From Clostridiales bacterium (lineage in GTDB: Bacteria > Bacillota > Desulfotomaculia > Desulfotomaculales > VENG01), in NCBI GenBank assembly GCA_021736985.1, contig JAIPEW010000017.1, positions 1-59,924 on the forward strand: a stretch of DNA of 59,924 nucleotides, read 5' to 3'. The translations under genes and the position numbers were made by a program. How positions within the stretch are numbered: position 1 is the first letter of the stretch; the number at the start of each line of letters is the position of its first letter. Below the pieces are notes generated by a model that ran no database searches, was not told the origin of the DNA, and worked only from the letters and a program-made list of their open reading frames with translations. Below, one piece after another: positions 25,129 through 31,040 of the stretch.

Positions 25129-27438
25129 ATGGATTTTTTACTAGAGAAAATAAAATCGGATCCCGGTTATAAAGAGCAGGTGGTGCATACAGAAGATATC
25201 TCGCCGTACTCTCCCGAGTACGGCGAGCTCAGTTCCCCTTTGCACGGGCTTTTAAATAAGGCCCTGTCTCAACAGGGAATAGAAAAACTGTTTACTCACC
25301 AGGTAGAAGCAGTAGAAAAAGTGCGTGCCGGTAAAAATGTAGTGGTGGTTACGCCGACTGCTTCGGGGAAAAGTATGTGTTATAACTTACCGGTACTGGA
25401 CGGGCTTCTCCGGCAGCCCTCGGGGTCTGCCCTGTATCTTTTTCCTACCAAGGCACTGGGGCGGGACCAGGTGGATACCCTGCGCGAGTTTAATACTAAC
25501 CTGTGTTTTGGAGTATATGACGGTGATACGCCCGGTGGAGAGAAAAAATACCTGCGGGATGTCGCAAATATTATATTTACCAACCCGGATATGCTTCACC
25601 AGGGGATACTGCCGCATCACCTGAAATGGCACTGCTTTTTTTCCAACTTAAGATATATAGTTATAGATGAAATGCACAACTATCGCGGGATATTTGGTAC
25701 TCACGTGGCGCATGTATTGCGAAGGCTGCGCAGGGTTTGCATTTACTACGGTGTTGACCCCGTATTTATATTTTGCTCTGCTACCATTGCCAATCCACGG
25801 GACCATGCTTCCAGGCTGGCCGGAGTGCCGGTGGAGAAGGTGGATAATAACGGGGCCCCGCGGGGAGCAATGCGTTTTGTACTGTGGAAGCCGCCCGTAC
25901 ATACCCCTTATATACAGGATGCGGCCTGGATTTTATCCCGCTGCATGGAAACCCGGCTGCGTACCATAACTTTTACCCGGGCCCGGCAGGCAGCAGAGCG
26001 TATTCTGCGGTTTACTAAGAAAGATACCGGGGAAGAAGGCGGGGCAGTTACTGCTTACAGGGGAGGTTACCTGGCCTCTGAACGCAGAAAGATAGAAGAA
26101 GGGCTTTTCAGCGGTAGGCTGCGGGGTGTGGTTTCCACTAATGCACTTGAATTGGGTATAGACGTGGGTGATCTCGAGGTTTGTATTATTGCCGGTTTTC
26201 CGGGAACTATAGCTTCTACCTGGCAGCAGGCCGGCCGGGTAGGGAGGAAGAACAAAAAATCGCTGGTAGTTTTTATAGCAGTGGAAAATCCCCTGGACCA
26301 GCATTTTATACGCAATACCCGGGCCCTTTTTTCCACACCCAGTGAAAGGGCGCTTATAGACCCGTCCAACCCTTACCTGCTCATGGGACATGCTGTTTGT
26401 GCTGCCCACGAACTGCCCGTGTCAGTGGAAGATTATCATCTCTGGGACGATATTTTCCAGGAACTGCTGGTTTTACTGGAAGAAGACGGAGACGTTATTT
26501 TTTCGGACGGTAAATATTACTTCAATGGTCAAACTTACCCGGCTAAAAGAGTTAACATAAGATCGAGTTCTCTTGAGCCGGTAAGCCTGCGGGATACTGG
26601 AAGCAAGAATCGCCTGCTCGAAGTTGTAGACGGCGACTCGGCATTTTCCCAGGTACATCCTGGTGCTGTATACATGCACCAGGGAGAGACTTTCGTGGTA
26701 AAAGACTTAGAATTAGATAAGTCAACTGCTTACTTAGAACAGCAGGATGTAGACTACTATACCATGTGCAGCAAGGATAAATCCACGGAAATCCTTTCAA
26801 TTGAGAGGGAAAAAGAATTTAACGGGCATAAACTTTATACGGGACAATTAAGGGTTAGAACAAGGGTGACAGGATATATAAAAAAAGAAGAACACACGGG
26901 ACAGGTTGTCGGCGGCGGCAACCTGGACTTGCCCGAGCAAGTACTGGAAACCACGGGAATGTGGGTAGTGTTTAACAGCCGGGCAGGAGAATTATCCAAT
27001 GAGTATAATTTGCATCTCATGGGAGGGCTGCATGCTGTTGAGCACGCTTCCATAGGGCTGCTGCCGCTGTTTGCCATGTGCGACCGTAATGACCTGGGGG
27101 GGCTATCGGTAGTAGAGCATTCTCAAACCAGCGGGCCCACGGTGTTTATACATGATACCTGCCACGGCGGGGTAGGCTTTGGTGAAAGGGCTTATGACCG
27201 GGCGCAGGAACTATTTGAAACCACTCTGGAGGCAGTCCGGTACTGCGAGTGTGAAGATGGCTGCCCGGCATGCATTCACTCTCCCAAGTGTTCTAACTTT
27301 AACCGCCCGCTTGATAAAGAGGGTGCAGTACTCCTACTGCACCTTTTACTGGGGTGGGAGTATCATCCAACGCAGCACGAGTCTCCCAAAATCGCAAACA
27401 GGGAAAAACTCAAAACAGCAGCCCGCAAACTGCGGTAA
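25129..27438 (+). CDS. mrfA: MrfA-type DEAD/DEAH helicase with DUF1998 zinc domain
   Basis: A 769-residue superfamily 2 helicase. Walker A TPTASGKSMCYNLP, DEMH box VIDEMHNYRG, motif III CSATIANP and motif VI QQAGRVGRKN are all present. The C-terminal domain ends with a four-cysteine cluster (CECEDGCPACIHSPKC) characteristic of DUF1998. The architecture is that of YprA/MrfA of Bacillus subtilis, which works with the exonuclease MrfB in repair of mitomycin-type lesions. Its usual partner is 1.5 kb downstream at 28944, separated by a leftward two-gene insert. GAAGGTG precedes the ATG, and the stop is within a palindromic element. Confidence 0.93.
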   Translation: MDFLLEKIKSDPGYKEQVVHTEDISPYSPEYGELSSPLHGLLNKALSQQGIEKLFTHQVEAVEKVRAGKNVVVVTPTASGKSMCYNLPVLDGLLRQPSGSALYLFPTKALGRDQVDTLREFNTNLCFGVYDGDTPGGEKKYLRDVANIIFTNPDMLHQGILPHHLKWHCFFSNLRYIVIDEMHNYRGIFGTHVAHVLRRLRRVCIYYGVDPVFIFCSATIANPRDHASRLAGVPVEKVDNNGAPRGAMRFVLWKPPVHTPYIQDAAWILSRCMETRLRTITFTRARQAAERILRFTKKDTGEEGGAVTAYRGGYLASERRKIEEGLFSGRLRGVVSTNALELGIDVGDLEVCIIAGFPGTIASTWQQAGRVGRKNKKSLVVFIAVENPLDQHFIRNTRALFSTPSERALIDPSNPYLLMGHAVCAAHELPVSVEDYHLWDDIFQELLVLLEEDGDVIFSDGKYYFNGQTYPAKRVNIRSSSLEPVSLRDTGSKNRLLEVVDGDSAFSQVHPGAVYMHQGETFVVKDLELDKSTAYLEQQDVDYYTMCSKDKSTEILSIEREKEFNGHKLYTGQLRVRTRVTGYIKKEEHTGQVVGGGNLDLPEQVLETTGMWVVFNSRAGELSNEYNLHLMGGLHAVEHASIGLLPLFAMCDRNDLGGLSVVEHSQTSGPTVFIHDTCHGGVGFGERAYDRAQELFETTLEAVRYCECEDGCPACIHSPKCSNFNRPLDKEGAVLLLHLLLGWEYHPTQHESPKIANREKLKTAARKLR

Positions 27439-27476
27439 TAAGTAAAAAAATGTGCCAGGCACATTTTTTTACTTAT
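27438..27476. repeat. Palindrome P2, shared 3' end and likely bidirectional terminator
   Basis: Perfect 19-bp arms (27438-27456 and 27458-27476) around one base: ATAAGTAAAAAAATGTGCC and its complement. It touches the stop codon of mrfA and contains the stop codon of the convergent kinase gene. The T-rich arms would also terminate transcription both ways. A close copy is at 40962-41002. Confidence 0.9.
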
Positions 27477-28357
27477 ATGAAAATAGTGAAGGTAGTTTCG
27501 GCCTGTGGATTATTTTCTACTTGAATTTTCCCTCTGTAAGTTCCTTCTACTAACTTTTTAATTGTAAATAATCCTATACCTGAGCCGTCTTTACCCTTGG
27601 TGGTATAACCGAATTGGAAAATCTTATTTTCATTAATTGTGGTGCTGCATGTGTTATTTACTTTTATAACAAGCGTATCTTGTATATTATTAAAAGATAC
27701 TTTAATGTATTTATCTTCTTCTGGTATTTCAGTATTATTCTTTAATTCATAAATTGCATTATCTATAAGATTACTTAAAATACGTACCATATCTGATTGA
27801 CTGATTTTAGCATTTGAAAGATCTGTATTTATATCATGCTCCATTTTTATACCGTGTTTTTCGGCTTCTTTTTCTTTAATAAACAAAAGAATGGATACTT
27901 CCGGCATTTCCAGGCCGCTTACTGCACTGACATTCCTGACTTCTTCGTGGATACCTTTGATGTATTTTACAGCAGCATCTTTTTTATCAAGTTGAATATA
28001 GCCTAATAATACTTGCAGGTGATTTAAAAAATCGTGGCGGTGAGAACGCAGCAGCTTAATAGACTTCTGTGCTGTTTCATTGGATATTTTAGCAATGGCC
28101 AGTTCTTTTTCCAGTTTGGCCATTTTTAATAACTGAAAGATTAAGTACGTTACTGTGAGTGTCAGGGAACAAGTGACTATGATTAACAATTTGCACAGTA
28201 ATGGTAATCCATATATGGGTAGGTCATAATACTGGTGAAAACCAGTTAAATTAAAAAATATTTGCCATGCACATAGAAGTATAAATAATATTTCAGATAT
28301 AATAACAGCAAGGATGGCGTACCTGTAGTAATGATACTGTTTATTTAACATGTCCAT
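27473..28357 (-). CDS. Membrane sensor histidine kinase, Spo0B/GHKL type
   Basis: A 294-residue kinase. Two hydrophobic segments (about residues 13-33 and 48-70) are followed by a short coiled linker, then the Spo0B-type phospho-acceptor helix SHRHDFLNHLQVLLGYIQ, with the HD-FLNHLQ pattern of CitA/DcuS/AgrC-like kinases. The GHKL ATPase domain shows the N box NLIDNAIYELKN and the G box GSGIGLFTIKKLVEG. There is no large extracellular sensor, and no response regulator gene is adjacent. The start overlaps the end of the upstream membrane protein gene by 17 bases, so the two are coupled and may form one sensor. Confidence 0.85.
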   Translation of the reverse strand: MDMLNKQYHYYRYAILAVIISEILFILLCAWQIFFNLTGFHQYYDLPIYGLPLLCKLLIIVTCSLTLTVTYLIFQLLKMAKLEKELAIAKISNETAQKSIKLLRSHRHDFLNHLQVLLGYIQLDKKDAAVKYIKGIHEEVRNVSAVSGLEMPEVSILLFIKEKEAEKHGIKMEHDINTDLSNAKISQSDMVRILSNLIDNAIYELKNNTEIPEEDKYIKVSFNNIQDTLVIKVNNTCSTTINENKIFQFGYTTKGKDGSGIGLFTIKKLVEGTYRGKIQVENNPQAETTFTIFI

Positions 28358-28778
28358 TTCTTACCTTCTTTATAACCAGTGTAATTATACAAAATATTAT
28401 TACATGCGGCAGCATGGTCAGCAGCCAGAGTGAATTATAATTTGATACACTAAACTGAGAGTGTGCTAGAAAATAAGTCAGGGGTTCAACCATTATAATG
28501 ACAGCATAACTTAATGTTACAGGGATAAGTATTTTATACCAGTTAACTTTAGTAAACATGTAAATTAGAACTATATATGTAAATATTCCCAGCAGTAAAT
28601 GGATAAAGAGATTTGTTTGAAGTATAATTTTAGCAAAGAGTAATAATGTTACAATACATATATCCAGCAGTATGAACCGGATAGAATTTATTTTTACATC
28701 TAGAATGTTTAATATAAACCACAGGGTTGCGCCTACCTCAACAAGGCTTCCTGGGAATATTATCCAGATAGGCGGCAT
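28341..28778 (-). CDS. Small polytopic membrane protein coupled to histidine kinase
   Basis: A 145-residue, almost wholly hydrophobic protein with about four or five membrane helices (for example FILLDICIVTLLLFAKIIL, LLLGIFTYIVLIYMF). It ends in a basic tail, VIKKVRNGHVK. No family recognised. It overlaps the kinase gene, so it is probably its membrane sensing or regulatory partner. ATG 28778 is about 20 bases from the nearest AAGGAG; an in-frame ATT three codons beyond it has better spacing, so the true start may be a rare codon. Confidence 0.55.
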   Translation of the reverse strand: MPPIWIIFPGSLVEVGATLWFILNILDVKINSIRFILLDICIVTLLLFAKIILQTNLFIHLLLGIFTYIVLIYMFTKVNWYKILIPVTLSYAVIIMVEPLTYFLAHSQFSVSNYNSLWLLTMLPHVIIFCIITLVIKKVRNGHVK

Positions 28779-28943
28779 GGCTTCACAAATATACGTTACT
28801 CCTTGTAATATATTAGAAGTAAAAAATAGATATTGTATAATTTCGTCAACATTATAAATTACACCTGCAAATTGATGTTATTTTTCATAAAATGAAACAG
28901 TTTAGTTGTTTAAGTAATACAAAAATATACAGGTGGAATGTAA

Positions 28944-29912
28944 ATGAGCCTTTTTCAGCGGTTGAACAATTTAAAAAAGGACCGGTCGCGGGAAAACAAG
29001 GTTAAAACAGATGTAAAGCCGGTGAATATTCCTGGTGGTGAAGTTATAACTTCTTGCGGGGAAGAGTGCGTATATCTGCAGGAAGTTTACCCCGGGCCCT
29101 TTTCTTTTCCCGGGCCCGCGAATTTGTGCAGGAACCTCAGGCTGCTGCGGGGAGTGGGGCCCGTAAATGAAAGCAGGCTGCAGGAGCAGGGGTATTTTTC
29201 TATCCAACAATTAAAGTGCCATCCCAGGTGGGGAGAGTGTGCATCTGAAGTACTCAGGCTACTTGATGAAAAGAATGTACACGGTTTGCAGAAACTTGGT
29301 GCTTCAGACTGGGACCTGCTTTCTTTTTATGACGCGGGAGAAGTGGTTTTCCTGGATATAGAGTCTACAGGACTCTGGGCTAACCAGCCCCTGTTCCTGG
29401 TGGGAGTTATGTACTGCCGGGACGGTGAGCTGGTGTCCGGGCAGTATTTTGCGCGCTACTACGGGGAAGAAAAGGCTGTTCTAGGAGCAGTAGACCGGCT
29501 GCTGCAAAATTTTAATGTAATTGTCACGTATAATGGCAAAAGTTTTGACATGCCGTACATTACCCAGCGCTGCGTGGCCAGGGGGCTTTTTTACCGGTAC
29601 GGGCATTATCACGTGGATCTTTTATATCACGCGAGAAGACATTTAAAACATCTCTTGCCTGACTGCCGGTTAATGACCCTGGAAGAATATCTTTTAAATT
29701 TTCGCCGGGAAGGGGACATACCCGGTTACTTAATACCGCAGACATATCACCGTTTTGTAAAAACAGGTGATGCCGGCCTGGTGCAGCCTGTAATAGAACA
29801 TAATAAGCTGGACCTGTTGTCCATGGCCCGCCTTTTTTATCTTGTAAACCCTGAATGCCCGGTCGATGTTGAATTAAGCCGGGCTCAGGCTGCTGCTGCT
29901 AGAGATACATAA
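28944..29912 (+). CDS. mrfB: MrfB-type DEDD exonuclease (YprB family)
   Basis: A 322-residue protein with an RNase-H-like exonuclease domain from about residue 130. VVFLDIESTGL supplies the first Asp-Glu, VTYNGKSFDMPYI and HVDLLYHARRHLKHL the middle acidic sites, and EHNKLDLLSMARLFY the final His/Asp. The N-terminal third contains a helix-hairpin-helix-like RLLRGVGPVNESRLQ segment. In B. subtilis MrfB is a metal-dependent exonuclease acting with MrfA in repair of DNA adducts. Unlike the usual adjacent arrangement, here it is separated from mrfA by an opposite-strand sensor pair. AGGTGG lies upstream of ATG. Confidence 0.9.
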   Translation: MSLFQRLNNLKKDRSRENKVKTDVKPVNIPGGEVITSCGEECVYLQEVYPGPFSFPGPANLCRNLRLLRGVGPVNESRLQEQGYFSIQQLKCHPRWGECASEVLRLLDEKNVHGLQKLGASDWDLLSFYDAGEVVFLDIESTGLWANQPLFLVGVMYCRDGELVSGQYFARYYGEEKAVLGAVDRLLQNFNVIVTYNGKSFDMPYITQRCVARGLFYRYGHYHVDLLYHARRHLKHLLPDCRLMTLEEYLLNFRREGDIPGYLIPQTYHRFVKTGDAGLVQPVIEHNKLDLLSMARLFYLVNPECPVDVELSRAQAAAARDT

Positions 29913-30207
29913 CGGTACTGATACAAAAACCCTGGTTTAAACGCGGTCAATAATCTGTAAACCCAAAGGGCAGGTGGATTCCCGGAGCGTTTATACTAAA
30001 ATACACTCCATGCTCGAAGAAAGAATACGAAGTCTCCTGGAAGGAAACCACCGGTCCTCATCCAGCTATCAGAAAACCTTGTTTTGAAATGCAAAAATAC
30101 TAATTTCACCAGAAGGGGAGGTGGGTTTCTGGAAGGTCGCGGTCATTCAAGTCAAGAACCGTCCCCAGTGTTGATTTTGATATTGATATAAGGTTAGGAG
30201 GGATTAT
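29913..30207. other. Intergenic region with decayed repeat fragments
   Basis: It contains pieces resembling the E3 repeat (CAATAATCTGTAAACCCAAA with GGTGGATTCCCGGAGCG at about 29948-29992, and AGGTGGGTTTCTGGAAGGTC at about 30119-30138) and the 240-bp repeat right flank (AGCTATCAGAAAACCTTG near 30063). No gene is visible. The region ends with the ribosome site AGGAGGG of the next gene. Confidence 0.5.
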
Positions 30208-30666
30208 ATGGGTATAAATGTGATGCTGGCAGCTGCAAATAGCGACCAGTTAAAAGAGGCCATGGGTAGGGCTGCTGAAAATTCCATAGTAGCTTTTGCT
30301 ACCCTTGATGATGATGTGCTTACCCGCATGATGAACAAGACAGCGCAGCAAGAAATCCCGGTATATTTTTATGAATCGGGTTGAGATTGCGGCAGAAGGA
30401 TAGCAGCCGTGGGCTGCCTTTGGAAAACGTGGCTTGATGTACCGGATGCAGATGATAAAGAGGAATTAACCAGTGAATTTAAAAAATTTTTTGGTGCTGA
30501 TTGGGATGATGTGTTAATCGGGGCCCGTAATCCTTTTGTTTATCACAAGGATTGGAAGGCATATTTTGCCGTTTCAGACCTTGAGGCAGTTTCCGGGTTA
30601 AATGTACTGGACCTGGCTGCACAGGAAGATATTGACCGGACATATAATGTAATAATTGGTTCGTAA
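30208..30666 (+). CDS. Candidate selenoprotein: small protein with one in-frame UGA (U-x-C motif)
   Basis: From ATG 30208 (TAGGAGGG seven bases upstream) one frame runs 153 codons to TAA 30664-30666, broken only by TGA at 30382-30384 (codon 59). Coding-like sequence continues without a gap on both sides: IPVYFYESG - UGA - DCGRRIAAVGCLWKTWLD. If UGA is read as selenocysteine, the site becomes U-D-C, a redox-type U-x-C pair. A hairpin of bacterial SECIS geometry follows the UGA. The second part has no ribosome site of its own, so it is not a separate gene. The family is not recognised: the N-terminus resembles a small alpha/beta protein, and there is no signal peptide. The alternative is a pseudogene with a single nonsense mutation. 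No sel genes are in the window. Confidence 0.55.
30382..30424 (+). promoter_or_regulatory. Putative bacterial SECIS hairpin after in-frame UGA
   Basis: The stem GCAGCC/GGCUGC (30403-30408 with 30412-30417) has a GUG loop whose first base is 24 nt past the UGA. A lower helix AAGG/CUUU lies below an AUA bulge. Bacterial SECIS elements lie within roughly 16-37 nt of the UGA and carry a G at the start of the loop; this hairpin meets both criteria by eye. Confidence 0.5.
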
Positions 30667-30712
30667 AAAAAACAATTCCGGTACTGCAGGCAGCACCGGA
30701 ATTGTTTTTTTT
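30667..30712. terminator. Bidirectional terminator
   Basis: A 16-bp stem (30667-30682 with 30695-30710) flanked by A and T runs lies between the convergent UGA-containing gene and the 30711 gene. Confidence 0.93.
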
Positions 30713-31040
30713 ACATAAGGTTGTCCATGATCCAGTCTTTAATTTCCTTGTTAACATTATAAATATCTTCATTCTCCATGTTGCCGCCCTGCTCTTTGAT
30801 TGCTTTAACCAGCATTTCCTGGGGTGGTTGTTTTGCAACACTTGTTGTTTCACTAACATATGTGCTTACTTTATACATGGACAGGCGGGCTTCATTGTCT
30901 ATTACATCGATTACAAAAGCAAATCCTTTTTTCCGGTCAGTTGTGAACTCGTTTTTAACGTCAAAATCCCAGATTAACTTATCTTTAACTTTATTCAAGT
31001 CTACGTCAAATTGTTTAATGAGTTCGGGATCTAAATCCAT
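30711..31040 (-). CDS. Hypothetical protein, 109 aa
   Basis: A soluble 109-residue protein that I cannot place. It has an acidic N-terminus (MDLDPELIKQFDVDLNKVKD), a beta-rich centre (KGFAFVIDVIDNEARLSMYK) and a helical C-terminus (NKEIKDWIMDNLM). Translation is well supported by AAGGAG nine bases before ATG, and a terminator lies at its end. It is monocistronic, divergent from the zinc-ribbon gene at 31212. Confidence 0.65.
   Translation of the reverse strand: MDLDPELIKQFDVDLNKVKDKLIWDFDVKNEFTTDRKKGFAFVIDVIDNEARLSMYKVSTYVSETTSVAKQPPQEMLVKAIKEQGGNMENEDIYNVNKEIKDWIMDNLM

Follow-up and report, generated by a model that had tools for sequence, protein, structure and literature searches.

The gene analyzed here raises the question of whether a TGA codon within its reading frame is a stop, a mutation or a selenocysteine (Sec) codon and, in the last case, what kind of selenoprotein the gene encodes. 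In the 59,924-nucleotide stretch of DNA that was analyzed (hereinafter the window), the frame at 30208-30666 has TGA 30382-30384 as its sole interruption. A preliminary description made from the sequence alone had noted this single frame, its good ribosome site and its one TGA, as well as a hairpin with a GUG loop 24 nt past the UGA; all these features were recovered at the positions listed below.

30208-30666, plus strand: gene of a 152-residue selenoprotein (Sec-59), ATG start and TAA stop (homologues, alignment, dN/dS)
30382-30384, plus strand: in-frame TGA assigned to selenocysteine, residue 59 (aligned in all 50 Sec-type copies)
30196-30202, plus strand: ribosome binding site AGGAGGG, with the ATG 5 nt further on (sequence)
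30403-30417, plus strand: bacterial SECIS hairpin GCAGCC-GUG-GGCUGC (covariation, shuffle controls, synonymous-site constraint, bacterial SECIS model)
30409-30411, plus strand: SECIS loop GUG, 24 nt past the UGA
30664-30713, no strand: near-perfect inverted repeat with A/T tails, probable intrinsic terminator (sequence)

The inverted repeat is located directly 3' of the TAA, between two convergent genes, and is probably a bidirectional terminator common to the selenoprotein gene and the convergent gene. An Rfam search yielded no match to a SECIS family; the sub-threshold miRNA matches at 30663-30714 were rejected, being the terminator palindrome.

Decoding of the in-frame UGA

The Sec-type set consists of 50 members from species-level genomes, namely 46 genomes of the order and four MAGs labelled as other phyla. 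In the alignment, TGA occupies the same column in 50 of the 50 copies, bearing out the expectation of a conserved UGA in homologues; of the 48 full-length homologues from the order, 46 contain exactly one TGA, in this common column, and the other two contain none. The Sec is embedded in the motif YFYExGU..RKVVAVGxL, or close variants, in 45 members and in the motif FCxPTUxLPHxxVAxG in five (subfamily 2). In close pairs, dN/dS is mostly 0.1-0.3 both upstream and downstream of the UGA, and purifying selection acts on both sides of the codon. A one-base nonsense mutation, offered at first as the competing explanation, is excluded because the same TGA is under selection in 50 species-level genomes; a pseudogene or a sequencing error is likewise ruled out by the conservation.

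The four genes expected of a Sec-decoding organism, selA, selB, selC and selD, are all present in the same genome. The selA and selB genes are side by side (C12:9493 and C12:10953), tRNA-Sec is found at C12:31951 (71.4 bits), and selD (C44:161461-162393, locus L032) contains one in-frame TGA, which makes the selenophosphate synthetase a selenoprotein too. Nearly all genomes of the order possess SelB, and its presence is therefore unusable as a correlate within the order.

The published model of bacterial SECIS elements places the loop 16-37 nt after the UGA, with a G in the first two loop positions and a limit of -7.5 kcal/mol. The hairpin in the window, with 6 bp and a 3-nt loop that begins with G, at -8.9 kcal/mol, fits this model; so do 33 of the 50 family members, compared with 20 (1.1%) of all 1770 TGA triplets that the window contains, the strict energy limit being missed by 17 members. 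In 45 members, the hairpin is conserved with its GUN loop 24 nt past the UGA, and the other five have a shifted hairpin. In the 45-member group, pairs form in 96.8% of pair cells. Covariation in the hairpin is 0.340, compared with 0.168 +/- 0.015 in shuffles, none of which (0 of 500) reaches 0.340, and with at most 0.160 in slid-partner controls; compensatory change on both sides is seen at four hairpin pairs. The codon for Ala67 is GCC in 45 of 45 members (background 0.40) and that for Gly69 is GGC or GGT in 45 of 45 (background 0.58), and in the loop codon for Val68 the third base is free to vary, in contrast to the frozen third bases at paired positions. The hairpin of subfamily 2 reads CGUNGY-(G/C)GUN-GCNRCG in four members, and the fifth has a close variant of it. 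The loop of this hairpin is 17 nt past the UGA, and all six pairs form in all five members; measured against coding constraint (P about 0.14 each), the excess is not clear. Because the single window sequence folds no better than shuffles (global fold, z = 0.00, not unusual), the case rests on conservation, with the single sequence merely suggestive; because the folding energy of the whole region relative to synonymous recoding gives a weak signal (mean z -1.05), the defined hairpin was tested separately. The identification of the hairpin at 30403-30417 as a SECIS element is supported by these analyses.

The conserved TGA column, the selection on both sides, the SECIS covariation and the Sec machinery strongly support the original assignment of the UGA to Sec; judging by this sequence evidence, SelB and tRNA-Sec almost certainly insert Sec at UGA-59 under the direction of the SECIS hairpin 24 nt downstream. 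That the UGA is a true stop, either separating two short ORFs or marking a nonsense-mutated pseudogene, appears extremely improbable: the downstream part does have a possible start, GTG 30409 (85 aa), but such a break would split the middle of one compact domain and would have to recur at one column in 50 genomes, flanked by selection and followed by a covarying hairpin. Also very unlikely is the reading of the UGA as another amino acid, or a hairpin that aids read-through without SelB. The presence of Ile or Ala at this position in two paralogues would be compatible with this alternative, but the hairpin conforms to the bacterial SECIS model, the genome encodes the full Sec machinery, and SelB is full-length in each of the four outside MAG genomes.

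The copies lacking the TGA have Ile (L089:6051-6512, minus strand) and Ala (L110:2971-3420, plus strand), and each is found in a genome that also keeps a UGA copy, so that both look like diverged duplicates (paralogues). The search for Cys homologues proposed initially thus returned no Cys form, with Cys at the Sec site in 0 of 52 members.

Distribution and novelty of the family

A protein search detected homologues in 27 of 60 relatives, and a profile search in 46 of the 113 genomes of the order, with 48 full-length copies; a class-wide search retrieved the identical set, and ~385 genomes from elsewhere in the phylum yielded no homologue. A DNA pattern spanning the UGA and the SECIS was run against a collection of 84,980 species and matched 26 contigs, all 26 of which encode the selenoprotein family and are true homologues. 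Twenty-two of these contigs are from named Desulfotomaculales or other Bacillota bins, and four are from MAGs labelled Nitrospirota (two), Deltaproteobacteria and Desulfobacteraceae; the named loci of carriers within the order belong to Desulfotomaculales. No homologue was detected in viral contigs with the DNA pattern or in plasmid or phage records with tblastn. Near one intact gene, there is a second partial match with two TGAs (L080, G010:C252:4799-4942), probably a decayed duplicate.

The four outside MAGs form one clade nested among the sequences of the order, which fits a transfer of the selenoprotein gene out of the order, with MAG binning as a caveat. In the two Nitrospirota contigs (L113 and L132), the gene is located directly 3' of lpxB, an ABC exporter and a Kdo transferase; because the gene adjoins lipid A and Kdo genes, these contigs come from LPS-bearing bacteria, and the context suggests horizontal transfer between phyla. 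Contamination of the outside MAGs is countered by the LPS gene context for these two contigs only.

The selenoprotein has no match among the models of Pfam, NCBIfam 20.0 and PADLOC; when 28 members were scanned, the best E-values, each in one member, were 0.047 (NCBIfam) and 0.0049 (Pfam), and no selenoprotein family was among the matches. Of the 119 bacterial selenoprotein families catalogued in 2026 (PMC13188914, Table 1), none fits the sequence or the PUA-like fold discussed below, as judged from the domain and motif columns. The early surmise that the family is undescribed holds within the libraries (Pfam, NCBIfam 20.0) and the catalogue checked; the family is new in the sense of its absence from both, and, the literature covered being open-licence only, an earlier description elsewhere is possible. 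These findings add a family of selenoproteins with a wide distribution in Desulfotomaculales; its gene has probably been split into fragments in annotations that take the UGA for a stop.

The family resembles known bacterial selenoproteins in the in-frame UGA, the downstream SECIS hairpin and the use of SelA, SelB, tRNA-Sec and SelD but differs in that no Cys form was found and there is no UxxC or CxxU motif. In a 2006 analysis, the only bacterial family without known Cys-containing homologues was GrdA, the glycine reductase selenoprotein A (PMC1794560), which is similar to the present family in this respect; unlike the present family, GrdA contains a CxxU motif, and the two showed no similarity in sequence. 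Because no Cys form was found, in contrast to most families, this one is a natural test of what Sec does beyond Cys. The family is open to experiment since cultured carriers exist: Desulforamulus aeronauticus, Desulforamulus putei, Desulfoscipio geothermicus and Desulfotruncus alcoholivorax.

Predicted fold and possible role of the selenol

No match in the PDB was found by sequence. AlphaFold2 predicts one compact domain both for the window protein (pLDDT 94.5) and for a member of the divergent subfamily (94.6), and the top structural neighbours of both models in the PDB are almost all PUA-like (ASCH, YTH, EVE or YqfB). For the two models, the Z-scores are 7.2 and 8.2 with ZmASCH, 7.6 and 7.5 with AF2351, 6.7 and 7.0 with the YTH domain, and 6.5 and 6.7 with TTHA0113; the match to YqfB has Z 6.0. 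The top Z-scores, 7.6 to 8.2, are at a level also within reach of unrelated models; each Z-score alone is middling, yet both predicted structures agree on the PUA-like superfamily. A thioredoxin-like fold is not among the top structural matches in the PDB. On the strength of these models, the protein very likely consists of one domain with a PUA-like fold as in ASCH, YTH and EVE, with the Sec predicted to be in the beta3-beta4 loop, which in PUA-like relatives would line the nucleic-acid-binding cleft.

Profile comparisons gave E 0.075 with a probability under 1% for EVE (hhalign, 10 EVE sequences) and E 0.17, which falls short of the cut-off, for Pfam EVE in one member; hhalign against ASCH, from only 4 ASCH sequences, was not significant, and the ASCH motif GxKxxxxR is not apparent in the family consensus. 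The ASCH proteins, such as the ribonuclease ZmASCH and the ac4C amidohydrolase YqfB, are similar to the selenoprotein as its best structural matches and as small single-domain bacterial proteins but differ in that no significant profile similarity was found, the GxKxxxxR motif is not seen here, and ASCH proteins are not selenoproteins. The sole local alignment with EVE, which is non-significant, pairs YFYESGU-xxRRIAAVG with FIYHTGK-EKAIVGVAEV. The RNA cleft of ZmASCH is lined by Tyr47, Thr49, Arg50 and Lys53, the first of which also recurs as a conserved residue in EVE proteins (PMC5615036). The conserved Tyr four residues before Sec-59 probably corresponds to this cleft Tyr of ZmASCH and EVE proteins; by the local EVE alignment, Sec-59 would be located four residues past it.

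The residues around the Sec bear on its chemistry. The thiol-redox role first envisaged from the U-x-C context in the window is not upheld: Cys is found at +2 in only 8 of the 50 members, at -4 in five, at -2 in four and at +1 in two, and the predicted fold is PUA-like rather than thioredoxin-like. A conserved Cys near the Sec, the feature of U-x-C or U-x-x-C thiol oxidoreductases, was thus not found among the 50 members; 31 of them have no Cys within 5 residues of the Sec, and four lack Cys in the whole protein. A more constant neighbour of the Sec than Cys is the basic residue at U+4, Arg or, in subfamily 2, His.

Overall, the observations are best explained, with high probability, by a Sec-decoded, SECIS-directed family of PUA-like selenoproteins with the selenol putatively at the cleft. 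UGA-59 would be translated as Sec via SelB and tRNA-Sec, guided by the small SECIS hairpin, and the lone selenol, without a conserved partner Cys, would be positioned at a cleft whose target may be a nucleotide, a modified base or RNA. The selenol could serve as a nucleophile or as a one-selenol redox centre, aided by the basic residue at U+4, and the neighbouring CxxCxxCC metal-binding protein could provide electrons or metal. Action of the lone selenol at a nucleic-acid or nucleotide cleft is, tentatively, the likeliest mechanism, a general redox or metal role being about as likely. It is conceivable, with some doubt, that this is the first PUA-superfamily selenoprotein to be described, with a Sec at the nucleic-acid- or base-binding cleft whose selenium chemistry targets a modified base or RNA, or uses it for sensing, and with no member in which Cys takes the place of the Sec. 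Should the PUA-like prediction hold, Sec would extend beyond the usual redox folds into a fold that binds nucleic acids or modified bases.

The protein might instead be a plain selenol redox protein, or a selenium or metal carrier, that reduces peroxides or binds metal or selenium together with the CxxCxxCC protein, the PUA-like barrel being incidental; this, too, is a possibility to be entertained with reserve. Known selenoproteins are mostly redox proteins (PMC13188914), and in 13 loci the gene for the CxxCxxCC protein (PF03692) adjoins the selenoprotein gene and is co-directional with it. The CxxCxxCC gene is on the upstream side in one family and on the downstream side in another, and about a quarter of the carriers show this adjacency. 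Across genomes, PF03692 is present in 21 of 27 carriers compared with 9 of 33 non-carriers (Fisher p = 2e-4). A redox or carrier role is at odds with the lack of a conserved partner Cys and of a thioredoxin-like fold, and 6 of the 27 carriers lack the CxxCxxCC gene, which in the window does not adjoin the selenoprotein gene.

Gene neighbourhood in the window

In general, the neighbourhood of the selenoprotein gene varies between families. A 109-aa protein encoded at 30711-31040 on the minus strand of the window has no Pfam match; its relatives are encoded on the opposite strand near the selenoprotein gene in 8 loci of three families, including the window. On the other side, the region 25129-29912 encodes an MrfA-like helicase and an MrfB-like RNase H protein, with two minus-strand genes between them (27473-28778) that are absent between the MrfA/MrfB-like pair in the sister genome G001; these two genes probably encode a sensor kinase and a membrane protein.
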